64,000 nucleotides of DNA from Minwuia thermotolerans (GTDB lineage: Bacteria; Pseudomonadota; Alphaproteobacteria; Minwuiales; Minwuiaceae), in NCBI RefSeq assembly GCF_002924445.1, contig NZ_PIGG01000031.1, positions 434,001-498,000 of the forward strand, given 5' to 3'. Numbering within the stretch: the stretch's first letter is position 1; the number at the start of each line of letters is the position of its first letter. The position numbers and the translations under genes are program-made. Of the stretch, positions 11,288 through 47,730 are shown one piece after another. Below the pieces are notes generated by a model. It was not told the DNA's origin. It saw only the letters and a program-made list of their open reading frames with translations, and made no database searches.

Positions 11288-11977
11288 TTAGTCACCTTTC
11301 ACTTCGTACAAATCTTCATCCTCATGTGTAATAAAAAATCGTATCCTATCGTTCGTATCCGATTTCAACATTTTCAAAACCGTATCATGATTTTGTGTCA
11401 TTCGTCCCGCAGCCTTTAATACTATGATATTTTGGGACTCATCAATAATTTGGCCGACGGGGCTGTCGCCGCGACCTCCCCACACGGGTATTGGATAGCT
11501 TGTCTTGATGTTTGGAATCGAAGCAAGTGTTATTGATTTTGATTCTCCCTTTTTATAATCCCCATCGTCTTCCACAACCCAACTTTTCGATTTCATTCTA
11601 GACCTTCCATCGTGTACGCATTCGAAAAGCTGGACAATTAATTTTCCCCGAAATGATCGAACAAAATGTATGTCTACCGTGACAACATCCTCCTCTGAAT
11701 TACTGGTGACACGTCGACGGCAGTTGATTGAATCAACATCAAAATACCGATATTTATAACGTAGCCACATTCGTAATTTTGATGTTGGATTTAGAATATC
11801 CGCATACAACGCACCGAGAAGAAATGCGACAGAACCTAATACGATGCCATCCCACGGCATTTCTTGCCACCAGTCAAAAGTGCTGCCTAACTCCATGACA
11901 GCGCTTTCAAATACGCGCACAAAGATGGGCAGCGCTGGGACAATGTATTTGAGGGCTGGTAGCCGTGATTTTCGCAT
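11288..11977 (-). CDS. AT-rich orphan membrane protein, unknown
   Basis: A 229-residue protein in a segment of visibly lower GC than everything around it, with many A/T-ending codons. Two hydrophobic stretches lie at about residues 11-30 and 43-62. They are followed by a soluble, beta-rich-looking region (VVTVDIHFVRSFRGKLIVQL, SKSWVVEDDGDYKKGESKSI). The start at 11977 (MRKSRLPALKY) is chosen because the longer frame to 12070 is GC-rich and overlaps the region before cckA. I do not recognise the family. Base composition and its position between recA and cckA suggest acquisition by transfer. Confidence 0.65.
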   Translation of the reverse strand: MRKSRLPALKYIVPALPIFVRVFESAVMELGSTFDWWQEMPWDGIVLGSVAFLLGALYADILNPTSKLRMWLRYKYRYFDVDSINCRRRVTSNSEEDVVTVDIHFVRSFRGKLIVQLFECVHDGRSRMKSKSWVVEDDGDYKKGESKSITLASIPNIKTSYPIPVWGGRGDSPVGQIIDESQNIIVLKAAGRMTQNHDTVLKMLKSDTNDRIRFFITHEDEDLYEVKGD

Positions 11978-12085
11978 ACTCGCTACTCTGCCTCCGCCTG
12001 CCGCAAAGGCAAGCGGCTTTCCCGCGTCGCTACATCGTTCCCGGAGCTGTAGACGGCCACCCGCACGCAAACGGCCGCGCTCGAA

Positions 12086-32954: not shown

Positions 32955-33287
32955 TTACCGCCCTGACGCGGAAGGCCCGGGGTGCAGGATGACGACCTCG
33001 TCGGGACGGCTCCATCCGAGGATGCGCCGCGCCTGTTCCTCCAGGATGTCGCCGTCGATCTCGGGGCCGCGGATCAGTTCGACCCGGCGCCGGAGCCGCT
33101 CTTGGCGCGCCTGCAGGTCCTCAAGTCTTTCCTGCTGGTGCCCGGCCTCTGCCTCCAGTTTCCTGAGCGCGACCAGGCCCCGCTCGCCATAGGCGGCGTG
33201 GAATCCGAAATAGAACACCAGGGCCGCGCCGATGAGCGGGGGCGCGAACTTCAGCAGGTGTCTCGATCCGGCGGTCGAAAGGGTCAT
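32955..33287 (-). CDS. ftsB: Septum formation initiator FtsB-like protein
   Basis: A 110-residue bitopic division protein. A short cytoplasmic N-terminus is followed by one membrane span (about residues 14-33, FAPPLIGAALVFYFGFHAAY) and a periplasmic coiled coil (about 38-75). The DivIC/FtsB pattern GERGLVALRKLEAEAGHQQE and EEQARRILGWSRPDEVVIL follows. FtsB acts with FtsL and FtsQ at the divisome. In alphaproteobacteria it commonly stands upstream of the pdh cluster, as here. Confidence 0.92.
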   Translation of the reverse strand: MTLSTAGSRHLLKFAPPLIGAALVFYFGFHAAYGERGLVALRKLEAEAGHQQERLEDLQARQERLRRRVELIRGPEIDGDILEEQARRILGWSRPDEVVILHPGPSASGR

Positions 33288-33669
33288 CGACGAATCGAAT
33301 CAGAACCGATTCGCCCGGTCAAACGGATTGCGCCGCCTTCATGTGCTTTTTCCGCCGAAGCGCCCAAAGCGTTGCCGAATTGACTCTTTTCCAGCGCACC
33401 GGACGGCTGACGCGAGGTCATCCTCGATCGATCGACGCCATTCCGCCGAAGGACAAATACTCATGAGTATAGTTTTTGATACCGATCAGTAAAAAGCACC
33501 CTGGCTCTGTTCTTTTCTGATTGCGGCCATTGCGTCATGCGCGCAGGCGAGGCTAAATGACCGCAACGAGGCGTCAGAAGAAGCGCCCGCTTTACCTGCG
33601 TCCAACTGCAGGAACCCGGCGAAACGCCGGAGGAAAAAGGGACCGGTGGTCCGCAAAGGGAGGTAGATC
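33288..33669. other. Divergent promoter gap between ftsB and the TRAP operon
   Basis: About 380 bases without a gene. It holds two dyads at 33457-33470 and 33480-33491 about 180-210 bases before the TRAP start. The rest shows nothing I can assign; GC falls near the dyads, as in a promoter. Confidence 0.6.
33457..33491 (+). promoter_or_regulatory. Tandem dyads upstream of the TRAP operon
   Basis: Site 1, ATACTCATGAGTAT at 33457-33470, is a perfect 14-bp palindrome. Site 2, TACCGATCAGTA at 33480-33491, is a near-perfect 12-bp dyad. Their centres are 22 bases apart, about two helical turns. Very similar sites in the same order precede the monooxygenase gene at 57542-57574, which suggests a shared, probably TetR- or GntR-type, regulator. 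Confidence 0.5.
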
Positions 33670-34719
33670 ATGAATCTCATCAAGACGTTGGGCGCGGTAG
33701 CGCTTGCGGCGAGCGTAACGCTCGCCATGTCGGCATCGGAAGCCGACGCGAAGAAGGTCCGCTGGAAGCTGCATTCCGCCTTCGGCACGAACGTGGCGGT
33801 TCTGGGGCCGGTCGGGCCGCGGATCACCGGCTGGGTGGACAAGGCTTCCGCCGGCGATTTCGACATCAAGGTGTTCGAGCCCGGCGCGCTGGCCGGCGGT
33901 TACGCCTACTACGACCCGATCAGCCAGGGCGCGTTCGAGGCGGCCTACGGCACACCGGGCGCCAATCAGGGCAAGAACTCGGTCTTCGCCTTCCTGTCGA
34001 CCTGGCCGTTCGGCCCGGGCGCGCTGGAGTTCAACGCCTGGCTGCAGTACGGCGGCGGCATCGAGCTCGGCAAGGAGTTCTACGGGCGCGACAACATCGA
34101 ATACTTCTACTGCGGCATGATCCCGCCGGAGACCTCCGGCTGGTTCCGCAACAAGATCACCAGCCTCGACGAGCTGAAGGGCCTGAAGATGCGCTTCTTC
34201 GGCATCGGCGCGAAGGTGATGCAGAAGTTCGGCGTGGCCACCCAGCAGCTCGCCGGCGGCGATATCTATCCGGCGCTGGAACTCGGCACCATCGACGCCA
34301 CCGAGTTCTCTATGCCGGCCATCGACCGCACGCTCGGCTTCTACCAGATCGCCAAGTACAACTACTTTCCCGGCTGGCATCAGCAGTCCACCACCAACGA
34401 GTTCCTGGTGAACCGCGACAAGTGGAACGAGCTGGATGACCAGAAGAAGGCGATCTTCGAGATGGCCTGCACGGCCAATATCGGCGTGGAACTGGCCGAG
34501 GGCGAAGCCCTTCAGTCCGCGGCGATGATCGCCAACGAGAAGGACGGCGTGGAGAATGTCGACTGGTCGCCGGAGATCCTCGACCAGCTCCGCGGCGCCT
34601 GGGGGGAGGTGCTCAAGGAAGAGCTTGCGGCCAATCCGGACGTCAAGCGCCTGTGGGACAGCTACACCGCCTTCCACGAGGAGTACAAGATCTGGGGTGA
34701 GCGCGGCTACCTGAGGTAG
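33670..34719 (+). CDS. TRAP transporter substrate-binding protein (DctP type)
   Basis: A 349-residue periplasmic binding protein. A signal peptide ends about residue 27 (ASVTLAMSASEADA), followed by the family pattern WKLHSAFGTN and GDIYPALELGTIDATEFSMP; the latter is the substrate-region signature of DctP proteins. PGWHQQSTTNEF resembles the TakP/alpha-keto-acid subgroup, so a small carboxylate or keto acid is a reasonable guess. GGGAGGT lies six bases before the ATG. It delivers substrate to the Q and M permeases encoded downstream. Confidence 0.95.
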   Translation: MNLIKTLGAVALAASVTLAMSASEADAKKVRWKLHSAFGTNVAVLGPVGPRITGWVDKASAGDFDIKVFEPGALAGGYAYYDPISQGAFEAAYGTPGANQGKNSVFAFLSTWPFGPGALEFNAWLQYGGGIELGKEFYGRDNIEYFYCGMIPPETSGWFRNKITSLDELKGLKMRFFGIGAKVMQKFGVATQQLAGGDIYPALELGTIDATEFSMPAIDRTLGFYQIAKYNYFPGWHQQSTTNEFLVNRDKWNELDDQKKAIFEMACTANIGVELAEGEALQSAAMIANEKDGVENVDWSPEILDQLRGAWGEVLKEELAANPDVKRLWDSYTAFHEEYKIWGERGYLR

Positions 34720-34880
34720 TCCGGCGTGACGCGGCGGCGGTCCTTGGTGGCCGCCGCCGCACCCGGTTTCGCAACGACCGGCGTGAGTACCCGCGCCGGT
34801 CGATTCTTGCCAACGGCACGGGCCCCGGCAGCGTCAGATCCGGGTCCGCGGACACCCACGAAGACGGGACTCCCGACAAG

Positions 34881-35534
34881 ATGCTCAAACTCGCCGACGC
34901 GGCCGACCGTTTCTCCCGCTCCATCGGGAAGGGCGTGAGCTGGCTGATCCTGCCGCTGATCATGATCATCATGTTCGATGTGATCACGCGGAAGATCGAC
35001 TTCATCAAGGACTGGTCCGCCGAGATAACGATCCACTACGGCTATTCCGTCTCCTTCATCCTGCAGGATCTGCAGTGGCACATCCACGGCGTGCTGCTGA
35101 TGCTGAGCTTCGGCTTCGCCTATCTGATGAACGCCCATGTCCGCGTCGACATCTTCCGGGAAATGGGCTCCCGGCGAACCCAGTGCTGGATCGAGTTCAT
35201 CGGCCTGGTCCTGTTCGCCATGCCGTTCCTGTGCTTCATGCTGGCCAAGTCCATCGACATGGTGGCCCTTTCCTACCATCAGGGTGAGGGGTCGGAATCG
35301 ATGGTCGGGATTCCCTGGCGCTACGTCATCAAGTCGGCGATGCCGATCGGCTTCTTCGTCATGCTGATCGCCGCCTTCGCCATGACCATCCGCGTCGCGG
35401 CCTATCTCTGGGGGTCGCCGGACGCGCGGGTCCGCGCCGAACAGGACATCCCCTTCTTCACCGATATCGACGTGCTGCCGAAGGTCTCCCTGGACGACGG
35501 GCCGGAAATCCTTTCGGTCGAGGGAGAGCGCTGA
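34881..35534 (+). CDS. TRAP transporter small permease (DctQ)
   Basis: A 217-residue inner-membrane protein with four predicted spans: VSWLILPLIMIIMFDVITRK, VLLMLSFGFAYLMNAHVRVD, FIGLVLFAMPFLCFMLAKS and SAMPIGFFVMLIAAFAMTIR. VDIFREMGSRRTQCWIEFIG is the typical DctQ loop. The C-terminal tail is acidic and longer than in minimal members. It stands 161 bases after the binding-protein gene and two bases before the large permease, so Q and M are coupled. No alternative function is likely. Confidence 0.93.
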   Translation: MLKLADAADRFSRSIGKGVSWLILPLIMIIMFDVITRKIDFIKDWSAEITIHYGYSVSFILQDLQWHIHGVLLMLSFGFAYLMNAHVRVDIFREMGSRRTQCWIEFIGLVLFAMPFLCFMLAKSIDMVALSYHQGEGSESMVGIPWRYVIKSAMPIGFFVMLIAAFAMTIRVAAYLWGSPDARVRAEQDIPFFTDIDVLPKVSLDDGPEILSVEGER

Positions 35535-35536
35535 CG

Positions 35537-37135
35537 ATGGAATTCTTCGAATGGCTGATTGACGATCACCTCTACGACTACATCGGCGGCTACATGTTCC
35601 TGGCGCTGGCCCTGGCCCTGTTCACGGGCCTGCCGGTCGCCTTCGCGCTCGGCGGCATCTCGCTGATCTTCGGCCTGCTGGGCATTGCCATCGGCGTCCT
35701 CGACTACGCCATCTTCTACCAGGTCATCAATCGCATCTGGGGCGGCGACGGCGCCTCGGGCGCGGTGCAGAACCCGATCCTGGTGGCCATCCCCTGTTTC
35801 GTGTTCATGGGCACCATGCTGGAGCGCAGCCGCGTCGCCGCCGACCTGCTGCACATCCTGCAGATCATGCTGCGCCGCGTGCCCGGCGGCCTCGCTCTCT
35901 CGATTACCGTCATGGGCACCATCATGGCCGCGACCACCGGCATCATCGGCGCCTCGGTCGTGATGATGACCCTGCTGGCGCTGCCGACCATGCTGCGGCG
36001 CGGCTACCAGCATTCGCTGGCCACCGGCACCATCGCCGCCAGCGCGACGCTGGGCATCCTGATCCCGCCCTCGATCATGCTGGTGCTGATGGCCAACCTG
36101 CTGGCGGTCTCAGTCGGCAACCTGTTCATCGGCGCGGTGCTGCCGGGTCTGGTGCTGTCCGGCCTCTACTTCATCTACATCATGACCCGGGCGACGATTA
36201 ACCCGAGCGTCGCCCCGCCGCTGCCCGAAGACATGATCCAGGTCGATCCGACGAACTTCCGGAACGTCGCCGTCTATTTCTCGGTCACCGCGGCCATCGT
36301 GATCGCCGTCTACATCCTCTCGCAACTGGGCATCGACTGGGTGAACTGGTCGCTGATCGGTTTCCTCGCCATCTTCACCTATTCGATGATGATGGGGCGC
36401 AAGGAGGGCAACACCATCTTCGGCGGCATCCTGAAGGGCTTCGTGCCGCCGATCTTCCTGATCATCATGGTGCTGGGGTCGATCTTCGCCGGCTGGGCCA
36501 CGCCGACCGAGGCCGCGGGCATCGGCGCCTTCGGCTCGATGATACTGGCCGCCTTCAACCGCACGCTGACCAAGGAGGTCGTGCGGGAAGTCTGCCACCG
36601 TACGGGGCTGACCACGGCGATGATCTTCTTCATCTTCGTCGGGGCGACGGCGTTCTCGACCGTCTTCCGCAACGTCTATGGCGAGGATCTGATCATCGAA
36701 CTGATCGAAGTCCTCGACCTGGGCGCATGGCCGCTGCTTTTCCTGCTGATGTTCTCGGTCTTCCTGATGGGGTTCTTCTTCGACTTCCTGGAGATCACCC
36801 TGATCATCCTGCCGGTCTTCGCCCCCGTCATCCAGGCCTTCGCACCCGAGTTCGCAAGCCATCTGGGCGTCGAGGGTCTGCCCTTCCAGCAGATCCAGGA
36901 ACAGGTGATCTACTGGTTCGCGATCCTCGTGGCGGTGAATCTGCAGACATCGTTCCTGACACCACCATTCGGCTTCGCGCTGTTCTACATGAAGGGCGTG
37001 GCGCCGCCGGAAGTGAAGATGCAATCGATCTACCGGGGCATCATCCCGTTCGTGACGCTGCAGGTGATCGGTCTCGGCGTCGTCATCCTGTTCCCGCAGG
37101 TCACACTCTGGCTGCCCAGACTGATGCTGCAATAG
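35537..37135 (+). CDS. TRAP transporter large permease (DctM)
   Basis: A 532-residue protein with about twelve membrane segments, longer than the usual ~430-residue DctM. It has the family pattern ALFTGLPVAFALGGISLIFG, PCFVFMGTMLERSRVA and ATLGILIPPSIMLVLMANLL near the middle, and GWATPTEAAGIGAFGSMIL. It carries the sodium-coupled transport path. The extra length resembles the DctM variants found with TakP-like binding proteins. Start 35537 is two bases after dctQ. Confidence 0.95.
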   Translation: MEFFEWLIDDHLYDYIGGYMFLALALALFTGLPVAFALGGISLIFGLLGIAIGVLDYAIFYQVINRIWGGDGASGAVQNPILVAIPCFVFMGTMLERSRVAADLLHILQIMLRRVPGGLALSITVMGTIMAATTGIIGASVVMMTLLALPTMLRRGYQHSLATGTIAASATLGILIPPSIMLVLMANLLAVSVGNLFIGAVLPGLVLSGLYFIYIMTRATINPSVAPPLPEDMIQVDPTNFRNVAVYFSVTAAIVIAVYILSQLGIDWVNWSLIGFLAIFTYSMMMGRKEGNTIFGGILKGFVPPIFLIIMVLGSIFAGWATPTEAAGIGAFGSMILAAFNRTLTKEVVREVCHRTGLTTAMIFFIFVGATAFSTVFRNVYGEDLIIELIEVLDLGAWPLLFLLMFSVFLMGFFFDFLEITLIILPVFAPVIQAFAPEFASHLGVEGLPFQQIQEQVIYWFAILVAVNLQTSFLTPPFGFALFYMKGVAPPEVKMQSIYRGIIPFVTLQVIGLGVVILFPQVTLWLPRLMLQ

Positions 37136-37235
37136 GGCGGCGGCCGGTGGGGCGGCGGAGGACCGCCCCCGGCCCCGCTGCAATCGCGGACCCGAGGCCC
37201 ATATGCGGGGAAACAGCATCCCCGGGAGGCCGACA

Positions 37236-37607
37236 ATGAAACTCTATGGCATACGCATCTTCGTCGACGATTTCGACAAGGCGCACGAATTCTATTCCGA
37301 CCTGCTGGCCCTGCCGACCAACTGGCGGGCCGACGGGATGCGGGCCGCCGGCTACGGCCTGGAGAATGCGGAACTGATCGTCGAGGAGGCGAAGGCGGCC
37401 GACAAGGGCCTGGTCGGCCGGTTCGTCGGTATCTCAATGACCATCGACACCATCGAGGCCGCCTACGAGACCCTCAGCGGCCGGGGCGTGCGCTTCGAGG
37501 GCCCGCCGGAAAAGCAGGAATGGGGCGGCACGCTGGCGCATTTCCGCGATCCGGCCGGCAATGTCCTGACCCTGCTGGAACAGGGCGGGGACGCCCGTGA
37601 CCGGTGA
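37236..37607 (+). CDS. VOC (glyoxalase/dioxygenase) superfamily protein
   Basis: A 123-residue single VOC domain. It begins KLYGIRIFVDDFDKAHEFYS and ends HFRDPAGNVLTLLEQGGD, the two ends of the beta-alpha-beta-beta-beta fold. A GGGAGG sequence six bases upstream supports the ATG at 37236 over the longer frame from 37203. The expected metal residues are only partly present (H near HFRDPAG and E in LLEQ), so enzyme activity is uncertain. The next gene starts inside its 3' end. Confidence 0.88.
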   Translation: MKLYGIRIFVDDFDKAHEFYSDLLALPTNWRADGMRAAGYGLENAELIVEEAKAADKGLVGRFVGISMTIDTIEAAYETLSGRGVRFEGPPEKQEWGGTLAHFRDPAGNVLTLLEQGGDARDR

Positions 37608-38016
37608 CGGCGGCGACCTGCCCGAGCACCTGCTGATCATGGACGGCGATTGCGCGCTGTGCTCCGGCGCCGCACGCTGGATCGCCCGCCACGACAGACG
37701 CGGCGAGTTCCGTATCGCCACGGCGGACAGTCCGCTGGGGCGTCGGCTTCTGGCCGGACAGGGCCTCGACCCGGACGACCCCGAAAGCTGGCTCTACATC
37801 GAACGGGGACAGGTCCGGACCTCCCTGGACGCCGTGATCGCCGCCGGCGCGCGGCTGGGCGGCGCCGGACGCCTGCTCGGCGCCTTCAGGGTCCTCCCCC
37901 GCCCGGCGCAGAACTGGCTCTACCGCCGCATCGCGCGCAACCGCTATGCTCTCTTCGGCCGGGCCGAACTCTGCGCCCTGCCGGACCCGGAACTGCGGAA
38001 GCGGCTTGTTCAGTGA
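37597..38016 (+). CDS. DCC-family thiol-disulfide oxidoreductase (DUF393)
   Basis: A 139-residue DUF393 protein. The namesake DxxCxxC motif is at about residues 16-22 (MDGDCALCSGAARWIARHD), and the C-terminal NWLYRRIARNRYALFGR is characteristic. The reading frame opens with a GTG at 37597, 11 bases inside the VOC gene. Its last ~40 bases are repeated, in diverged form, at 39698-39737 after the next gene. The stop overlaps the GTG start of the following gene (GTGA). Family function is thought to be redox, but substrates are unknown. Confidence 0.9.
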   Translation: MTGDGGDLPEHLLIMDGDCALCSGAARWIARHDRRGEFRIATADSPLGRRLLAGQGLDPDDPESWLYIERGQVRTSLDAVIAAGARLGGAGRLLGAFRVLPRPAQNWLYRRIARNRYALFGRAELCALPDPELRKRLVQ

Positions 38017-39749
38017 AAGTCTTCGTCATTGGCGGTGCAGGCGTGTTCGGCAGCCGGGTCGCGACCCTGCTTTGTCGTGATGGCCACCAGGTGGTTCTGG
38101 GCGGCAGGCGGCGGGCCCCCCTTCAAGAGCTGGCTCATCGTCTTGGGTGCGAATTCACCATTCTCGACCGATCGGATGACCTCACTCCGATCACATCCAC
38201 TGGCGTCGAGATCGTCGTCGACGCGGTCGGACCCTTCCATGCCTATGGCGAGGAACAATACCGGATTCCCCAGTACTGCGCCGAACATGGCCTGAGCTAC
38301 ATGGACCTCGCAGACGATGCGGACTTCGTCGCCGGCGTCGCCCGTCTTGATGGCGCTTTCCGCCGGGCCGACAGATTTGCGCTCTCGGGTGCATCAAGCG
38401 TTCCCGGCCTGTCCGCTGCGGCAGTGCGCGACATCGCCAGCAATATGGATCGCATCGATGTCATCGAGACGGCGATCCTGCCCGGAAACCGCGCGCCACG
38501 GGGATACTCGGTCATTGCCAGCATACTCTCCCAGGTCGGCGGCCCGATAGACCTCTGGCGTGGCAACCGCTGGGTCCGGTCCCGCGCCTGGAGCGAACCG
38601 CGCAACTATCGCCTCCCGAACGGGCAAAGGCGTCACGCCCGCCTTCTCCGCGTGCCCGACACCGCACTGTTTCCGGACCGATTCGGGGCAAGGTCTGTTC
38701 TCTTCCGAGCAGGCATGGAGCTTGGCGTGCTGAACGGCGGCGTTACGGTCGTTGCCTTGCTCAGGCGCCTCACCGGCGTCGCGCCACCACCCTGGATGAG
38801 CCGAGCGGCTCACCTCATCGCATCGGCCTCTCACCAGATGGGAACGGACGAGGGCGGTATGGAGGTGAGTGTCGTCGGCACACGCGACGGCGACATGGTA
38901 CGGGATCGATGGTCGCTGTTCGCATCGAAAGGCGACGGTCCGTTCATTCCGGCCATAACCGTACGGGCTCTGCTGAGGCGCTACGAAACCATTCCGCCGG
39001 GCGCGCGGCCCTGCCTTGGGGATTTGATGCTGAGCGACGCTGTTGCCGCCATGTCTGACCTCTCGGTCACGCAGCGGACAACGCATGAAATGCAGCCAAC
39101 TCTGTTCAGGGAAGCGCTCGGCGAACGATGGCGCGACCTTCCGATATGCGTGCGGCGGCTCCATTCAGTTCAGGACATCGAGAGTTTCACCGGACGCGCC
39201 GAAGTGATCAGAGGCAACAGTCTGATTGCTCGCTTTGCCGCATTCTTTTTTCGCTTTCCGAAGCCGGGCCGCGATGTTGCCTTGACCATCACCAAGACAC
39301 GCACGAGCCGTGGCGAGATATGGGAGAGGAACTTCGATGGCCGGATTTTTCGATCCTATCTCAAGCCCTCGCGGCGCCACCACTACCGCGAACGTTTCTG
39401 GGTTTTCGACTACGAACAGGAGCTCCCAGTTGTCGACGGGCGGATGAGCCTGCCGGTACGCCGTGGCTGGCTCATAAGGGTCCCCTTGCCCCGCTTCCTC
39501 CTGCCGCGAAGCGATAGCGTCGAATATGAAGAAGACGGCCTGTTCCGGTTCGATGTCGGTCTCTACGCACCGTTGGGTGGCGGGCTTATCGTACGCTACC
39601 GGGGATCGGTCGCGCCAAGTGGCGACCCAACGCCCGGCCAGGCGGCGTTCGCGGTTGAAGGTGTAGATGTCGGTGACCACGCCGATCAGGGGCCAACGGC
39701 CGGGCCGACCTCTGCGCCCTGCCGGACCCGGAACTGCAGCGGCGATTGA
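38013..39749 (+). CDS. Saccharopine dehydrogenase-like / DUF4166-like fusion protein with a scar-derived C-terminus
   Basis: A 578-residue protein starting at a GTG that overlaps the DCC gene by four bases. Residues 1-~130 are a Rossmann domain (KVFVIGGAGVFGSRVATLL; VEIVVDAVGPFHAYGEEQYR) of the saccharopine-dehydrogenase type. From about residue 380 the sequence (FFFRFPKPGRDVALTITKTR, GEIWERNFDGRIFRSYL, GLIVRYRGS) resembles DUF4166. The last ~40 codons from position 39628 are not native: they read through a diverged EamA 3' end in antisense and a diverged DCC 3' end. GC content is lower than the neighbours. Function is unknown. Confidence 0.8.
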   Translation: MKVFVIGGAGVFGSRVATLLCRDGHQVVLGGRRRAPLQELAHRLGCEFTILDRSDDLTPITSTGVEIVVDAVGPFHAYGEEQYRIPQYCAEHGLSYMDLADDADFVAGVARLDGAFRRADRFALSGASSVPGLSAAAVRDIASNMDRIDVIETAILPGNRAPRGYSVIASILSQVGGPIDLWRGNRWVRSRAWSEPRNYRLPNGQRRHARLLRVPDTALFPDRFGARSVLFRAGMELGVLNGGVTVVALLRRLTGVAPPPWMSRAAHLIASASHQMGTDEGGMEVSVVGTRDGDMVRDRWSLFASKGDGPFIPAITVRALLRRYETIPPGARPCLGDLMLSDAVAAMSDLSVTQRTTHEMQPTLFREALGERWRDLPICVRRLHSVQDIESFTGRAEVIRGNSLIARFAAFFFRFPKPGRDVALTITKTRTSRGEIWERNFDGRIFRSYLKPSRRHHYRERFWVFDYEQELPVVDGRMSLPVRRGWLIRVPLPRFLLPRSDSVEYEEDGLFRFDVGLYAPLGGGLIVRYRGSVAPSGDPTPGQAAFAVEGVDVGDHADQGPTAGPTSAPCRTRNCSGD

Positions 39750-39755
39750 TTGACG
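39628..39755. repeat. Chimeric duplication scar (EamA tail joined to DCC tail)
   Basis: Bases 39628-39704 match the 3' end of the EamA gene at 41445-41534 with a few substitutions and one 12-base deletion; bases 39698-39737 match the DCC gene end at 37957-37996 with one mismatch, and similarity continues weakly to its stop. The two matches meet at a shared CGGCCGGGCC. In the DCC frame this piece would read LCALPDPELQRRLIDGV and stop, compared with LCALPDPELRKRLVQ in the intact gene. The sequence looks like a junction formed by microhomology. Confidence 0.8.
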
Positions 39756-39766
39756 GGGTGTGACGC

Positions 39767-40288
39767 TCAGACCGCGTTGTGGACCCTGCCGCCCATGAGT
39801 TCCTCGACGAACAGGCCGACAAGCTGGGTGCGGTTGGAGACACCGGCCTTGGCGTAGATACGGGCAAGTTGGGCCCGAACGGTGCCCTGGGCTGCGTTGC
39901 GGAATCCGGCGATCTCGGCCACGTCGAAGCCCTTCAACGCGAGCATCGCCACGTCGGACTCCGCCGGAGTCAGTTTCCATCTGGCGAAATAGCTGTCGAT
40001 CAGTTCGACGAAGGCGCCGGATGCCACCGACAGCGCGGCTTCGGCACGCTGGTTCCGCTCCAGCGTGCGGCGCATCTCGAGCCCGCCAAGAACGACGCCC
40101 GCCACCAGCATCAGGGCGACCAGCGCTTCGAAGGCCGTGTGCAGATCCAGACCGACACGGCCGAAATCGGTGATCACATCGCCGACGAAGAAGACCGCGC
40201 AGAGCGCCTGGACGGCCAGCAGGACGGCCAGGATGGCCGCCCGCCGGTCGCCGGCGCCGTGTCCCGGATCTTTCCGCCCGGCGGTCAT
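39767..40288 (-). CDS. Membrane-anchored LuxR-type regulator
   Basis: A 173-residue protein with two N-terminal membrane segments (about residues 18-38 and 50-68) and a C-terminal LuxR/GerE-type helix-turn-helix (LTPAESDVAMLALKGFDVAE, then GTVRAQLARIYAKAGVSNRT, residues about 105-165). There is no periplasmic sensor domain beyond short loops. It is last in an operon behind a PepSY-like protein and a cytochrome b, with a four-base overlap, so it may report membrane or redox state to DNA. The target is unknown. Confidence 0.85.
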   Translation of the reverse strand: MTAGRKDPGHGAGDRRAAILAVLLAVQALCAVFFVGDVITDFGRVGLDLHTAFEALVALMLVAGVVLGGLEMRRTLERNQRAEAALSVASGAFVELIDSYFARWKLTPAESDVAMLALKGFDVAEIAGFRNAAQGTVRAQLARIYAKAGVSNRTQLVGLFVEELMGGRVHNAV

Positions 40289-40899
40289 TCGCGCCGGGAA
40301 CGCGGCGTCTCCCGCAGGCCCGTCACCATCTGCCGCGCCAGGTTCACGCCGGAGAGCCGACTCTCCAGGATCACGCCGCCGACATGCAGCGCCGCCAGCA
40401 GCAGAAGCAGATTGGCGAAGACCTCATGCACCTCTTCCAGAATCTCTTCTCCCTCGTCGTCGTGCTCGTCCTCTTCACGGGTCTCATATTGCTCCACCCG
40501 AGCGTCGGAAGCGGCCGGAAAGGGCGAGCTTTCCATCATCACGCCGGTCACGGAAACCAGCGCCAGCGACCCCCAGAGGGCATAAACCATCAGGGCCCCA
40601 AGCGGATTGTGGGAATCATGCCGCCGGTGGCGGCCGGTCATCAAGTCGCCAATATGCCCCAGCGCAGCCGACAGGCTTGGCGGGAAGGCCGAGAACCGGG
40701 CCGGGGCGGTGCCCACGAACCCCCACATGACCCGCAGCGCCAGCAGTCCGAGGGCCACATAGCCGATCCAGATATGGGCCAGCGCGTGCTCGTCTATCAC
40801 CAGACCGTTCAGCAGCACCGCAATCGCCACGCCCCAGTGGGTGAGCCGTACCAGCGGGTCCCAGATGCGGACCGGCCGGTTACCCGCTTCAGTGGCCAT
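40285..40899 (-). CDS. Cytochrome b561-like membrane protein
   Basis: A 204-residue membrane protein with four or five spans. It begins VRIWDPLVRLTHWGVAIAVL, the pattern of Ni,Fe-hydrogenase/formate-dehydrogenase-type b cytochromes; likely haem histidines include H21, one in the HIWIGY segment and one in LAALHVGGV. An unusual, very acidic loop (EQYETREEDEHDDEGEEILE) interrupts it before the last spans. It starts on the last base of the PepSY-like gene stop and overlaps the LuxR gene by four bases. It probably passes electrons between a periplasmic partner and the quinone pool. Confidence 0.88.
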   Translation of the reverse strand: MATEAGNRPVRIWDPLVRLTHWGVAIAVLLNGLVIDEHALAHIWIGYVALGLLALRVMWGFVGTAPARFSAFPPSLSAALGHIGDLMTGRHRRHDSHNPLGALMVYALWGSLALVSVTGVMMESSPFPAASDARVEQYETREEDEHDDEGEEILEEVHEVFANLLLLLAALHVGGVILESRLSGVNLARQMVTGLRETPRSRRE

Positions 40900-41306
40900 C
40901 AGTCGTCTTCCCGGACACGGAGAACGCGGCCGTCCACGCCATCGACATCGATCTCGTAGTGCCGTCCGTCGCGGATCGCCCTTATCTCGACCCGGCCATG
41001 CTCGCGCTCCATGCGCACGATGCGGTAGCCTTCGTCCGTCAGCCTGCGGGCGAGATCGTCATCGAACACCCGGGCTTCCGCTTCGCTGCGGCGATATCCT
41101 TCGTCCCCGTCTTCCTGATCGTTCCGGCGTTCATCATCCCGGTCGCCGCGCGTTTCGTGTTCACGGTCGCGCTCCCGGTATTCGCGTCGCTCATGGTCGC
41201 CATATTCGGCGCGGACGCCACGGTCGTCGCCCTGGCGATCGGACGCCATCGCAGGTGCGGCAATCAGAATTGGTGCGGTCAGGGCAAGCATGATCATGGC
41301 CTTCAT
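40899..41306 (-). CDS. PepSY-like exported protein
   Basis: A 135-residue exported protein. A signal peptide ends about residue 21 (TAPILIAAPAMAS), an extremely charged Arg/Glu/Asp-rich linker follows to about residue 75, and the C-terminal part (LARRLTDEGYRIVRMEREHG, then HYEIDVDGVDGRVLRVREDD) resembles one PepSY repeat. PepSY proteins often accompany b-type cytochromes and membrane regulators. It is first gene of the three-gene operon; a TAAGC-gcat-GCTTA dyad lies about 100 bases upstream (41406-41419). Confidence 0.8.
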   Translation of the reverse strand: MKAMIMLALTAPILIAAPAMASDRQGDDRGVRAEYGDHERREYRERDREHETRGDRDDERRNDQEDGDEGYRRSEAEARVFDDDLARRLTDEGYRIVRMEREHGRVEIRAIRDGRHYEIDVDGVDGRVLRVREDD

Positions 41307-41443
41307 CGGACATCTCCATCTCCGGTTCGCGGCGTCGCCGCCGCCCCCTTCAATGGCGCGTGGACCCGGGGTCCGATATCGACCCGACGCTTACAACGCC
41401 CCGCGTAAGCGCATGCTTATGCCGGAATTCCGCGGTTTCCGCC

Positions 41444-42319
41444 TCAACGCCCGGCCAGGCGGCGTTCACGGTAGAAGGTATAGATGCCGGTGACCACGAC
41501 GATGGCCGCACCGATCAGGGTCCATCGGTCGGGCCAGTGGCCGAAGACGACGATGCCGGAGAAGATAGCCCAGATCAGGATGGTGTAGCGGAAGGGCGAG
41601 ACGAAGCCGATGTCACCCACCCGCATCGCCGCTACCGATGACGTGTAGCCGGTGATCAGGAAGCAGGCCGCGCCGCCCAGCAGGGCGATCTCGTAGCCGC
41701 CGATGGGCCGCCATTCCTGCGTCGGCGCGAAGACCGCGCCCATCAGCGTGATGAAGAAGGCGGTGAGCAGGGCGACGAAGGCAGACGGAATCGACGCCGT
41801 CAGCCGCCGGGTCATGATGTCCCTGAGCACGATGAAGCAGACCGCAGCCAGCGCCCAGAGTGAATAGGCGTTGAAGCCCTCCGAGCCGGGCCGGACGATG
41901 ATGAGCACGCCCGCGAAGCCGACCAGAATGGCGCTGTAGCGCCGCCAGCCCACCGGCTCCCGCAGGAACAGCGCGCCCGCCAGCGTCACCGCCAGCGGCA
42001 TGGACTGCAGGATTGCCGTGGCGTTGGCGATCGGCATGTTGAACAGCGCCTGCAGGAAGCAGTAGGTGCCGCCGACCTCGCCGGCGATGCGCCAGGCGAG
42101 GACCGTCCGGTCGCCGCGCGGGACGGAGACCATCAGGGCGCCGCGCCGCCAGGCGATGAGCGCCAGCATGGTCGTGGCGAACAGTCCGCGCACCAGCAGG
42201 GCCTGAAAGAATCCCACATCCGCCGAGGCGAGCTTCATCATGGCGTCGTTGATGCCATAGCCGGCCATGCAGACCGACATCAGCAGAGCGCCCCGGAGAT
42301 TGTCGGCCGACGAGTTCAT
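41444..42319 (-). CDS. EamA-family (DMT) transporter
   Basis: A 291-residue protein with ten predicted membrane segments in two homologous halves; the first ends with ATAILQSMPLAVTLAGALFL and the second with YTILIWAIFSGIVVFGHWPD. These are EamA features, found in exporters of amino acids or metabolites (RhtA/YdcZ-like). The C-terminus is GIYTFYRERRLAGR. A diverged copy of this 3' end lies at 39628-39704. The gene is 79 bases downstream of the acyl-CoA synthetase on the same strand. Substrate is unknown. Confidence 0.9.
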   Translation of the reverse strand: MNSSADNLRGALLMSVCMAGYGINDAMMKLASADVGFFQALLVRGLFATTMLALIAWRRGALMVSVPRGDRTVLAWRIAGEVGGTYCFLQALFNMPIANATAILQSMPLAVTLAGALFLREPVGWRRYSAILVGFAGVLIIVRPGSEGFNAYSLWALAAVCFIVLRDIMTRRLTASIPSAFVALLTAFFITLMGAVFAPTQEWRPIGGYEIALLGGAACFLITGYTSSVAAMRVGDIGFVSPFRYTILIWAIFSGIVVFGHWPDRWTLIGAAIVVVTGIYTFYRERRLAGR

Positions 42320-42398
42320 CGCGCGATCTGGCGCGGAAGCGGCGCGGCCCGCAAGCGCGAACTTCGCCGGGCCGTCATTCGCAGCACCCGGCAGGCAG

Positions 42399-43949
42399 TC
42401 AGTTCACCTGCCGGTCCCGGCCTTCCCAGTAGGGCGCGCGCAGTTCCCGCTTCAGGATCTTGCCCGACGGGTTGCGCGGCAGCTCGGCGACGAAATCCAC
42501 CGACTTCGGCGCCTTGTACCCGGCGATGCGCTCCCGGGCGTAGGCGACCAGTTCGTCTTCGGTCAGGCGCGCGCCTTCCTTCAGCACGACCACGGCCTTG
42601 ACCGCCTCGCCCCACTTCACGTCGGGCACGCCGATCACCGCGATGTCGGCGATCGCGGGATGGCCGAACAGCGCGCTCTCCACCTCGGCCGGATAGATGT
42701 TCTCGCCGCCGGAGACGATCATGTCCTTGATCCGGTCGTGGATGTAGAGATAGCCGTCCGCGTCCAGATAGCCGGCATCGCCGGTGCGGAACCAGCCCTC
42801 GCGCAGCACCGCCGCGGTCGCCTCGGGGCGCTTCCAGTAGCCCTTCATGTTCTGCGGCGTCCGGCAGATGATCTCGCCGACCTCGCCGGCCGGCAACTCC
42901 CGGCCCTCGTCGTCGACGATGCGGATCTCGACCGCCTCGTGGGCCTTGCCGCAGGACTTCATGCGCGGGCCGCCCTCCGGACGGTGTTCCTCGGGCGGCA
43001 GATAGGTGATGGCGCCTGACGTCTCGGTCAGGCCGTAGACCTGGGCGAAGTCGCAGCCGAACAGGCCGACGGCGCGCTGCAGCAGGTCCAGCGGGATCGG
43101 CGAGGCGCCGTAGATCACCAGCCGCAACGAGGAGAAATCCGTGTCCTTCACCTTCGGATGCTGGGTCAGGAACAGGATCACCGCCGGCACGAACAGCACG
43201 ATCGAGACCCGTTCGGTCTCGATGGTCTCCAGGATCAGGCCCGGATCGACGTCGGCTTGCAGGATGTTGGTGCAGCCCGAGTAGAGACCGACGATGCCCC
43301 AGCCGCCGCCGGCAATGTGGAACAGCGGCATGCAGATCAGGTTGACGTCATCCGCATTCCAATTGGCCCAGCGCCGTGTCGCCGCCGGCATCAGGGACAT
43401 CAGGTTGCAGTGCATCAGTTCGACGCCCTTGGGGTGCCCCGTGGTGCCGGAGGTGTACATCTGGCAGGCCGTGTCCGTCTCCAGCACCTCGACGCCGCAT
43501 TCGTGGTCGCCGCCACGGTCGCGCCAGGCCAGATAGTCCGTCCATTCGTCGTCGGCGAAGTCGACGGCGACGATCCGCTTCACCGTCGGCAGGTCGCCCG
43601 CGATCCGGCGCACCAGGGCGGCATGGGCGGCATCGACGAAGAATGTCTCGGCCCCTGCATCGTTGACGACGAAGGCGACCTCCGGCGGCGCCAGACGGAA
43701 ATTGACCGGCACGAGAACGACGCCTGCCTTGGCGGCGCCGAACTGAAGTTCGAAGAAGCGGTCGGTATTCGCGGCCAGCAGCGCGATGCGCGCGCCCTTG
43801 CCCAGGCCCGCGGCGCGAAGCGCGTTGGCGACCCGGTTGGTCGATCGATCGAGATCCGCATAGCTGTGTTCGCGGCCGCCGAACTTCAGCGCCGTCTTGC
43901 CGCCCCGTTCGGCCGCATGATGACGAAGAATGTCGCCCAGAACCTTCAC
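42399..43949 (-). CDS. Acyl-CoA synthetase (AMP-binding, class I adenylate-forming)
   Basis: A 516-residue ANL-superfamily ligase. The phosphate-binding loop YTSGTTGHPKG is at residues 165-175; other motifs are VYGLTETSGA, YLDADGYLYIHDRIKDMIVS and the catalytic-lysine region PRNPSGKILKREL. It likely activates a medium- or long-chain or aromatic acid as its CoA thioester. I chose the GTG at 43949 because a GAGGGAGG sequence lies six bases upstream; the frame is open further (to 44021) through an Arg-rich stretch that lacks conservation features. Confidence 0.93.
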   Translation of the reverse strand: MKVLGDILRHHAAERGGKTALKFGGREHSYADLDRSTNRVANALRAAGLGKGARIALLAANTDRFFELQFGAAKAGVVLVPVNFRLAPPEVAFVVNDAGAETFFVDAAHAALVRRIAGDLPTVKRIVAVDFADDEWTDYLAWRDRGGDHECGVEVLETDTACQMYTSGTTGHPKGVELMHCNLMSLMPAATRRWANWNADDVNLICMPLFHIAGGGWGIVGLYSGCTNILQADVDPGLILETIETERVSIVLFVPAVILFLTQHPKVKDTDFSSLRLVIYGASPIPLDLLQRAVGLFGCDFAQVYGLTETSGAITYLPPEEHRPEGGPRMKSCGKAHEAVEIRIVDDEGRELPAGEVGEIICRTPQNMKGYWKRPEATAAVLREGWFRTGDAGYLDADGYLYIHDRIKDMIVSGGENIYPAEVESALFGHPAIADIAVIGVPDVKWGEAVKAVVVLKEGARLTEDELVAYARERIAGYKAPKSVDFVAELPRNPSGKILKRELRAPYWEGRDRQVN

Positions 43950-44420
43950 GGCTTGCCTCCCTCGGATCCGCCCTGCGACGGACCTACAGCCAGCGATCCG
44001 ACGGCGCAAGCCGATGCGCACCGATCACCGCCGGCCGGCGGGAGCGCCTTTGAGCGGATCGGGACCGGCGATCCGCCGGCCCAGGCACGGCGGGCTGTGA
44101 CATCGGTCATTCAAGAGATGGAATAATTCCATTTGGCATTGTCAGAAACGTTGGAAGCCCCATTTGCCTGAGCAGTGGCAAGGGACAGCCCGCGCCACCG
44201 ATTGCATCCGTGCCGGCATCTCCGTTCCGGCGAGGATCGCGGTATTCCGTGACCGCGTTGTGACCAACGCGATGCCCTTCCGTGATCCTGCTGGCGTTGT
44301 GCCGGAGCGATACCAGATTGAGGACAGTCGGGCGCGGTAGCCGGATCGCCCGACGCACCAAGGGAACGGCGCGGAACCGCATCTTCCATGCCCATGGAGC
44401 GGATGCGGCGCTCGCGCCTC

Positions 44421-44454
44421 GGAGGACCCGGCCACCCCCTCGGCCGGGTCCTCC
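44421..44454. repeat. 13-bp perfect inverted repeat
   Basis: Arms GGAGGACCCGGCC and GGCCGGGTCCTCC with an 8-base loop. No T-run follows on either strand, so it is not a normal intrinsic terminator. The very GC-rich stem would be stable in RNA. Confidence 0.7.
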
Positions 44455-44556
44455 CCCGCGGCGCAGGGCCACCGCCTGCTGTCCGCTCACCCCTGTTACC
44501 GGTTCGGCCCGCGGCCCGCACATTGCGTAGCGTCCGGCCGCGCCGCGAGCCGGAAA

Positions 44557-44590
44557 GGAAGCCTTCGCCGCTCCGGCGGCGGAGGCTTCC
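44557..44590. repeat. 15-bp inverted repeat with UCCG loop
   Basis: Arms GGAAGCCTTCGCCGC and GCGGCGGAGGCTTCC pair with one wobble around the four-base loop TCCG. It lies about 100 bases after the first hairpin and about 60 before the promoter-like sequence of the peroxiredoxin gene. No T-run follows on the plus strand. Confidence 0.7.
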
Positions 44591-44647
44591 ACCTCCGTGC
44601 CACGCTGCCGGGCGATCATCTTTATATTAAAATCATTCTAATTCGTA

Positions 44648-44676
44648 TTGACGCGCCCGTCCCCGACGCCTAAATC
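44648..44676 (+). promoter_or_regulatory. Sigma-70-like promoter of the peroxiredoxin gene
   Basis: TTGACG at 44648-44653 and TAAATC at 44671-44676, with a 17-base spacer, 39 bases before the ATG. The upstream flank (44620-44647) is AT-rich, as in an UP element. Confidence 0.55.
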
Positions 44677-44714
44677 GGGATCATCGAACAACACACGGGC
44701 AAAGGAGATTTTTC

Positions 44715-45248
44715 ATGCGCGTCCCATCCGTAACCTTCAAGACCCGCGTCCGCGACGAATCCGTCGAGGGGCCGAACAAGTTCCGCTGGCAGGACCGGAC
44801 ATCCGACGAGATCTTCAAGGGCCGCAAGGTCATCGTCTTCGGTCTGCCGGGCGCCTTCACGCCGACCTGCAGCTCGACCCACCTGCCCCGCTTCGAGGAG
44901 CTCCACGACCTGTTCATCGAGCAGGGCGTCGACGAGATCGTCTGCCTGTCGGTCAACGACGCCTTCGTGATGTTCCAGTGGGGCCGTCACCAGGGCATCG
45001 AGAAGGTAACCCTGCTGCCCGACGGTTCGGGCGAGTTCACCTCCAAGATCGGCATGCTGGTGAAGAAGGACAATCTCGGCTTCGGCTATCGCAGCTGGCG
45101 CTATTCCATGCTGGTCGAGGACGGCGAGATCGTCGAACTCTTCGAGGAGCCCGGCAAGGGCGATGACGTCGAGGGCGATCCCTTCGAGATCTCGAGCGCC
45201 GACCACATGATCGACGTCGTGCGCAAGCGCTACGCCAAGGCCGCCTGA
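44715..45248 (+). CDS. Peroxiredoxin (Prx5 family)
   Basis: A 177-residue peroxiredoxin with the peroxidatic cysteine C52 in FGLPGAFTPTCSSTHLPRF, the Prx5-family signature. A second cysteine (C77) is not in the typical resolving position, so it is probably reduced by glutathione/glutaredoxin or thioredoxin directly. It removes hydrogen peroxide or organic peroxides in the cytoplasm. AAAGGAG stands about seven bases before the ATG, and the gene is monocistronic between a promoter-like sequence and a clear terminator. Confidence 0.95.
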   Translation: MRVPSVTFKTRVRDESVEGPNKFRWQDRTSDEIFKGRKVIVFGLPGAFTPTCSSTHLPRFEELHDLFIEQGVDEIVCLSVNDAFVMFQWGRHQGIEKVTLLPDGSGEFTSKIGMLVKKDNLGFGYRSWRYSMLVEDGEIVELFEEPGKGDDVEGDPFEISSADHMIDVVRKRYAKAA

Positions 45249-45277
45249 ACCCGCGCCGACACTGCAAACTAACCCAA

Positions 45278-45308
45278 ATCCCCGCCGGGCTCCGGCGGGG
45301 ATTTTTCG
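45278..45308 (+). terminator. Intrinsic terminator of the peroxiredoxin gene
   Basis: An 11-bp perfect stem (ATCCCCGCCGG with CCGGCGGGGAT) with a three-base loop, followed by TTTTCGTT. It is 30 bases after the stop. Confidence 0.93.
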
Positions 45309-45455
45309 TTGTGCCCGGTTCGCGGCCTTCCGCCCCACATCGCCGGGCGGCAGCGCGATACAGATGAACTGTCCTTACCGGTTTAACCAAAACGAAAGTT
45401 CCTCCCATTACCACCTCGAAATGATCGGCTTCGAACAACCCCCAGGAGGAACGCC

Positions 45456-46028
45456 ATGAACCACGTTGTCCGGACGGCCCTCGCCGCCGCTCTCGCCCTC
45501 GCGGCCCTGCCGGCGGCAGCGAACGAATTCCGCGCCCCGCTGGAACAGCTCGCCCGGGGCGAGATCCGCAATATTGTCAGCGACGCCACGGTCGTCGCCG
45601 CGATCAACGCCCAGAACCAGAAGACCGCCGGATTGGGCCAGACCGATATCGACGGTCTCGACAAGAAGTGGCGCGCGGAGGTCGACGGCGGCGGCGAGAT
45701 GATCTCCGAAGTCCTCGCCAACAACCTCTCCGGCTATCTGAAAGCCCGCAAGGAAGCCGCAGGCGGCCAGTTCACCGAAATCTTCGTCATGGACGGCAAG
45801 GGCCTCAACGTGGGCCAGTCCGACGTCACCTCCGACTACTGGCAGGGCGACGAAGCCAAGTGGAAGGAAACCTTCCTGGCCGGCGCCGACTCGATTCACA
45901 TCGGCGATGTCGAGCTGGACGAGTCGACCCAGACCTATCAGAGCCAGGTCAGCGTTCCGATCGTCGACCCCGCCAGCGGCGCCGTAATCGGCGCGGCGAC
46001 GTTCGGCGTCGACGTTTCGTCTCTCTGA
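45456..46028 (+). CDS. Exported Cache-like sensor protein
   Basis: A 190-residue protein with a signal peptide of about 22 residues ([14 protein letters not shown]) and a mature part resembling a single Cache/PDC domain: an N-terminal helix ([20 protein letters not shown]), a beta region with [20 protein letters not shown], then [16 protein letters not shown] and a closing [20 protein letters not shown]. It has no membrane anchor after the signal peptide. AGGAGGAAC stands seven bases before the ATG. It is 19 bases before a chemoreceptor gene, so it may bind ligand and dock on that receptor. Confidence 0.82.
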
Positions 46029-46047
46029 TCCGACGGAGAACCCGGTC

Positions 46048-47730
46048 ATGACCGAACAGACCCAGTCCGCGCCCGCCCCGAAGCGGAAGGACGACATCCG
46101 CCGCTTCCGCGGCCTCGGGGCGCGGCTCATCGCCGTGGTGCTGCTCGGCGTCGTCGCCGGGTTCACCGCCATCATCGCGCTCCAGTTCACTGCGGAGCGC
46201 GAGCGCGTCAGGGAGTTTGTCGCCGCCGGCAATCTGGAGCAGACCCGGCTTCTGGCCGCCCAGGTCGGCGGCGCCGTACGCTTCGGCAAGGTCGAACACA
46301 TCCGCGACGCCTACCAGCCCCTGACAGCCGGCGAAGGAGCGGCCGTGGCCGCCATCCGCGTGATGAAGGCCGACGCCGGCGCCATCGTCGAGTACAATTC
46401 GGAGGCTCTGGCCGCCGCTGACGAAGCGGCGATCGAGGCCGCGGTGACGCGGTCCGCCGAAACCGGCGAGCCGTTCAACGCCATGGCCGGCGGTCAGCAG
46501 GTCGTCGTCACGCCGATCCGCTTCGGCCCGAACAACGACGTGGTCGGCACCCTCGCCATGGTCTGGGACTTCGGCCGCGCCGACGCCGAGATCCTGTCGG
46601 GCGCGCTGGAGGCGCTGGTGATCGCCGGCGCCATTGCCGCCGCGCTGCTGGCGGGCATCGTATTCATGATCTCGCGCATGGTTTCCCAGCCCATCCTGCA
46701 GATGAACCGGCGTATGCAGGCCCTCGCGGCCGGCGACACCGGGACCGCGGTGCCCTATCTGGACCGCCGCGACGAGATCGGAGCGATGGCGAAGTCCATC
46801 GAGGTGTTCAAGCGGAACGCCATCGAGAAGGCCGAACTGGAATTGCGTGAACGCGAAACGGAGACCCGCGCCGAAGCGGAACGCAAGGCAGCGATGCACG
46901 AACTCGCGGGCGAGTTCGAGCAGGCGGTTGGCAACATCGTGAAGGCCGTCTCCAGCGCCGCTACCGAGTTGCAGGCCGCGGCCCAGGCCATGACGGCCAC
47001 CGTGGACGAAACCAACAACCGCTCCGCCGCCGTTGCCAGCGCCTCCGAGCAGGCATCGGTGAATGTCCAGACCGTCGCCTCGGCCACGCAGGAAATGTCG
47101 AACTCGATCCGCAAGATCGGCCGCCAGGCGTCCGAATCCTCGACACGCGCCGGCACCGCCGAAAGGGAAGCCGACGAGACGGTCATCACCGTGCAGCAGC
47201 TTGCCGACACGGCGGAGAAGATCGGCGAGGTCGTGGCCCTGATCAAGGAAATCGCCGAGCAGACCAACCTGCTTGCGCTCAACGCCACCATCGAGGCTGC
47301 CCGCGCCGGGGACGCCGGCAAAGGCTTTGCGGTCGTCGCATCCGAGGTCAAGACGCTGGCCAGCCAGACCGCCAAGGCGACGACGGACATCGCCGAGCAG
47401 ATCCAGGCCATCCAGGCCGCCACCGGCAGCTCGGCTGCGGCGATCTCCCGGGTGACCGGCGCGGTCAAGGAACTGTCCGGCATCGCCTCGACGATCGCCG
47501 CGGCAGTGGAAGAACAGACCGCGGTCACCCAGGACATCTCCCAGAACGTGCAGCAGGCCGCTTCCGGCACGCAGGATGTCTCGGTCAACATCTCCGGCGT
47601 CACCGAGGCGGCGAGCCAGTCCAGTTCCGCCGCCGCCCAGGTTCTCGCTTCCGCCGGCGATCTCGCGCATCAGGCCAACGCCCTCAACACCGAGATCAAC
47701 GGCTTCCTGGAGCGCGTGCGCGCCGCCTGA
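46048..47730 (+). CDS. Methyl-accepting chemotaxis protein
   Basis: A 560-residue chemoreceptor. Membrane spans at about residues 25-46 and 187-208 flank a periplasmic sensor of about 140 residues; the HAMP domain is at about 210-262. The signalling hairpin tip reads [20 protein letters not shown] followed by [13 protein letters not shown]. The periplasmic region has a double-Cache/sCache look ([20 protein letters not shown]). It controls flagellar switching through CheA/CheW, which are not in the window. It is coupled with the exported Cache-like protein upstream and followed by a terminator. Confidence 0.95.

Follow-up and report, generated by a model that had tools for sequence, protein, structure and literature searches.

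A two-part scar behind a saccharopine-like gene, probably marking the right-hand edge of DNA inserted into the 3' end of a DCC gene

The saccharopine-like gene SACC ends in a scar in which the 3' end of an EamA transporter gene is joined to the 3' end of a DCC gene. This scar probably marks where the right-hand side of an insert was joined to the DCC 3' end in the lineage of the genome carrying the window (G000), the incoming DNA deriving from a related strain or species. The window is the whole stretch of 64,000 nucleotides that was analysed, and for the comparison with a site lacking the insert one close relative of G000 was used, the congener G006, which is about 97% identical. The features are the following.

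37597-37996, plus strand: body of the resident gene for a DCC1-like thiol oxidoreductase (DUF393; Pfam PF04134, E 1e-26)
37956-37996, plus strand: left copy of a 41-bp direct repeat (DCC end, CGGCCGGGCC...GGAACTGC)
37997-38016, plus strand: DCC tail A (...LRKRLVQ*), missing in G006; it shares GTGA with the start of SACC
38013-39749, plus strand: SACC, a saccharopine-dehydrogenase-like NADP-binding domain plus DUF4166 (Pfam PF03435, PF13761), complete and open, with its stop TGA at 39747-39749
39627-39706, minus strand: EamA 3' remnant with a 12-base deletion and the stop TGA changed to TGG
39697-39706, no strand: joint, CGGCCGGGCC common to the EamA remnant and DCC; native EamA has CGGTCGGGCC
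39697-39737, plus strand: right copy of the 41-bp direct repeat, 40 of 41 positions identical to the left copy
39738-39763, plus strand: DCC tail B (...QRRLIDGV*), intact and in frame in G006
39767-40288, minus strand: LuxR/GerE-type regulator (PF00196), directly after DCC in G006
41444-42319, minus strand: resident full-length EamA transporter (PF00892), 98% amino acid identity to G006

BLAST of positions 39600-39799 against the rest of the window returned two matches, one to the EamA end (39628-39706 with 41445-41535, 7 mismatches and one 12-base gap, 86 bits, E 1e-19) and one to the DCC end (39697-39743 with 37956-38005, 1 mismatch and one 3-base gap, 72 bits, E 3e-15). None of 500 dinucleotide shuffles scored above 42 bits, far below both matches, which bears out the two-part composition proposed in a preliminary description of this DNA. 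As that description had it, the parts meet at a common sequence, CGGCCGGGCC at 39697-39706; since native EamA reads CGGTCGGGCC, exact identity at the joint amounts to only 6 bases plus 3, that is, a microhomology CGG(C/T)CGGGCC of 6-10 bp. The final ~40 codons of SACC fall in the scar together with the stop, which, again as described before, is supplied by the scar, the TGA being DCC-derived sequence read in another frame. Behind SACC, the EamA remnant lies in the orientation of EamA and the DCC end in that of DCC. Taken together, the region is colinear with two consecutive versions of the interval from DCC to EamA, first DCC(tail A)-SACC-EamA', then DCC'(tail B)-LuxR-cytochrome b561-PepSY-EamA, and the inner EamA'-DCC' junction sits at the microhomology. 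A recent tandem duplication is rejected, as two non-adjacent gene ends are involved, one of them 89% alike with a 12-bp deletion, and the earlier proposal of a rearrangement joint with microhomology is supported in its place. A transposon or insertion sequence was likewise discarded: no inverted repeat pairs the ends of the insert, SACC is its sole gene, and the duplication comprises 41 bp of coding sequence instead of the short target duplication expected.

The window matches G006 in two pieces, 33201-38005 (97.1%) and 39697-46936 (96.1%), which abut in G006 with an overlap confined to the repeat. The gene order of G006 is DCC, LuxR, cytochrome b561, PepSY and EamA, without SACC. Its DCC gene, the product of which shares 95% amino acid identity with that of G000, runs through the same 41 bp into tail B, followed by LuxR, and its end, ...GACCCGGAACTGCAGCGGCGATTGATTGGCGGGGTGTGA, equals the G000 sequence up to 39763 with one base changed. 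The 97% nucleotide identity of the G000 DCC gene to G006 stops at 37996, allowing a 3-base gap, and the left breakpoint of the insertion is 37996/37997. The two genomes are colinear, with no recipient sequence missing and 41 bp duplicated. Because the same sequence is the real DCC end in G006, what the scar contains of DCC is most likely the resident gene's original 3' end, displaced to the right by 1741 bp, and the present DCC end of G000 (37997-38016, LRKRLVQ*) most likely arrived with the insert. Of the earlier reading, the microhomology-mediated rearrangement stands, whereas the DCC part is most likely no stray copy. Furthermore, the scar would be only the right edge of the insertion; the left breakpoint had been missed, as had the loss of the EamA stop, which is TCA on the plus strand at 41444-41446 and CCA in the scar at 39627-39629. 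The repeat copies differ at one site, where copy 1 encodes E like G006 and copy 2 D like the other congeners, a distribution that fits a reciprocal crossover and could also be due to one mutation.

Adjoining the insertion, the DCC end at 37831-37982 comprises some 150 bp without differences from G006, and dS of DCC is only 0.02; this is possibly a conversion tract, or chance. On the other side, 39738-41646, which covers LuxR, cytochrome b561, PepSY and the terminal portion of EamA, differs from G006 at 7.2% of positions (138/1909), compared with 2.7% to its left and 1.4% to its right. Within this block dS is 0.15-0.28, and the best-fitting segment, 40345-41634, ends inside EamA. The block was probably imported by homologous recombination in one of the two genomes.

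DCC and SACC form a conserved alphaproteobacterial pair that overlaps or nearly so (G001-G004, G130, G233, G258 and others), and with its GTGA overlap the pair in G000 has the layout of these named genomes. In tail A and SACC, part of this conserved pair is thus preserved intact. SACC aligns end to end with its relatives at 45-49% identity over residues 1-541. Its homologues end 1 to about 30 residues past a conserved RYRG motif. The preliminary description had named a C-terminus conserved across relatives as the finding that would speak against a scar; no such conservation was seen in the SACC homologues, since their tails past RYRG are unrelated, and the scar as conserved coding sequence is rejected. 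GC3 of SACC is 0.71, as against 0.86 for DCC and 0.85-0.93 (about 0.89) for most neighbours. In the SACC tree G000 joins G128 and G231 of another family (support 100/99), and the AU test rejects placing it in its own genus (p 5e-5). Tail A (LRKRL) resembles the DCC ends of G128 and G231, and in the DCC tree, built to see whether DCC has the same history as SACC, the AU test gives p 0.06 for grouping with the genus and 0.08 for grouping with these two genomes, so that neither is rejected. G128 and G231 carry the DUF4166 part only; at the respective loci (L159 and L158) DCC is directly followed by a gene that encodes DUF4166 alone, with no NADP-binding domain. Elsewhere in the window, which has 66% GC, the ORF region at 11288-12070 has a GC of 0.455 and a GC3 of 0.415 and is a possible foreign gene.

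How could such an arrangement arise? Probably the source, a related strain or species, carried a DCC end (tail A) followed by SACC and by an EamA tail facing SACC. At the left edge, a crossover would have occurred within the 41-bp stretch at the DCC end, and at the right edge the incoming EamA tail would have been joined illegitimately to the resident DCC at CGG(C/T)CGGGCC. Equivalently, a single crossover within the 41 bp may have integrated a circle closed at that microhomology. Either route would cost no resident base, double the 41 bp and shift the resident DCC end by the length of the insert, 1741 bp made up of tail A (37997-38016), SACC and the decayed EamA tail. The EamA remnant and the displaced DCC end would be dead DNA that now provides SACC with its ~40 terminal codons and stop. 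For an insertion count the break of the G006 alignment at 37996 and its resumption at 39697, the conserved DCC-SACC pair, the likeness of tail A to G128 and G231, the remnants, which lie in the same order and direction as DCC and EamA, the E in copy 1 and D in copy 2 as a reciprocal crossover would leave them, and the foreign origin of SACC suggested by its GC3 and its place outside the genus in the tree. Against it counts that the SACC frame meets no stop codon ahead of the EamA remnant, which calls for a further joint or for a small deletion at 39627.

The EamA remnant bears on the age of the arrangement. The resident EamA is related to the source of the remnant, which is about equally distant from the EamA genes of G000 and G006. 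Relative to both it has 7 private changes, read by eye from the aligned sequences and mostly altering amino acids or the stop, plus the 12-bp deletion; over the same stretch the EamA genes of G000 and G006 differ almost only at silent sites. Given the lost stop, the deletion and the mostly amino-acid-changing substitutions, the remnant appears to have decayed as dead DNA for some time, perhaps for longer than the time since the G000-G006 split. Its divergence of 9% is somewhat above one lineage's share, as dS of the neighbouring genes between G000 and G006 is about 0.1 (0.096). This keeps alive an explanation that is rather unlikely on the whole, namely that the composite of tail A, SACC, EamA remnant and tail B predates the split and was lost from G006 by deletion between the repeats. 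The repeats are suitable for such a deletion, being identical at 40 of 41 positions and 1.7 kb apart, and it would yield the exact G006 layout, with the E of copy 1 and the tail B that follows copy 2; the decay of the remnant and its equal distance from both EamA genes agree with it, as does the DCC-SACC order, which is the usual one in the genus. However, two events instead of one are required, SACC is still compositionally foreign and outside the genus in the tree, and the repeat copies have diverged by just 1 base in 41. The same remnant argues against a replication-based template switch, by which the EamA end would have been copied as filler DNA from 1.8 kb away during DCC-SACC integration, with no EamA from the donor. 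The source would indeed be near and equally oriented, and at about 79 bp the remnant is short, but it lacks a clear G000-specific EamA state, and over this length its 7 private changes and 12-bp deletion exceed the ~5% per lineage expected from half the dS of 0.096, an excess that is not decisive. Such a switch is considered quite improbable. An artefact of assembly or strain mixture, two alleles of the DCC-EamA interval being joined in silico, is more improbable still. The joint overlap of only 10 bases, the 82 contigs and 3.6% estimated contamination of the G000 assembly and the unusual divergence of the next 1.9 kb from G006 could be taken as hints of it, but the scar lies inside a 538-kb contig, joins over 10 bases are not normal for assemblers and the reading frame of SACC continues uninterrupted across the joint.

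For the insertion in the G000 lineage a donor was sought by several routes. With the EamA protein the best match on genome contigs was 62%, from no close relative; with SACC there was no match among viral contigs and at most 44% among plasmids. A DCC-SACC-EamA arrangement was found neither among 60 relatives and 385 class members nor in the families of G128 and G130, and none of the genomes searched has EamA beside DCC or SACC. As the searches yielded no donor and the comparison covers one close relative, a gain in G000 is favoured over a loss in G006 but not proven. A more specific version, in which the repeat copies are the reciprocal mosaic left by a circle closed at CGGCCGGGCC and integrated by one crossover, with the DCC-EamA interval serving as an exchange spot for alternative cargos, is unlikely.

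The proposed event would work like homology-facilitated illegitimate recombination, described in Acinetobacter, S. pneumoniae and P. stutzeri and for E. coli conjugation, or like its circle variant (PMC3240628). Alike are the microhomology joint of 6-10 bp on the right side and the ~1.7 kb of incoming DNA; on the left side, where identity to G006 reaches 37996 before tail A and SACC begin, a homologous anchor is likely. In experiments on one-sided integration, microhomology of 3-10 bp is usual at illegitimate joints (PMC3240628), and CGG(C/T)CGGGCC at the right end (39697-39706) falls in this range. In contrast to the canonical process, no recipient DNA is deleted at the illegitimate side in G000 relative to G006 and 41 bp are doubled, and the event is therefore not assigned to homology-facilitated illegitimate recombination in the strict sense. 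The doubling is nearer to the integration of circles by single crossover, which duplicates the anchor (PMC3240628). As a trace of gene exchange the locus is clear but ordinary, an illegitimate recombination of known kind that leaves the known mechanisms unchanged. It is of value as a natural example: the two breakpoints, the microhomology, the insertless relative and the displaced resident end are all legible, so that an additive one-sided integration can be followed step by step down to single bases, and the joint shows how a gene acquires a new C-terminus and stop. A stepwise additive insertion that shifts the old 3' end downstream has been proposed for the T6SS effector-immunity arrays of Vibrio cholerae and for Rhs loci (PMC5361080). 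There as here, a new gene stands behind a conserved upstream stretch and the old 3' end is shifted downstream and kept; unlike in those arrays, the displaced piece is here the 67-bp dead end of a housekeeping-type gene with an EamA remnant beside it, and toxin or immunity genes are absent.
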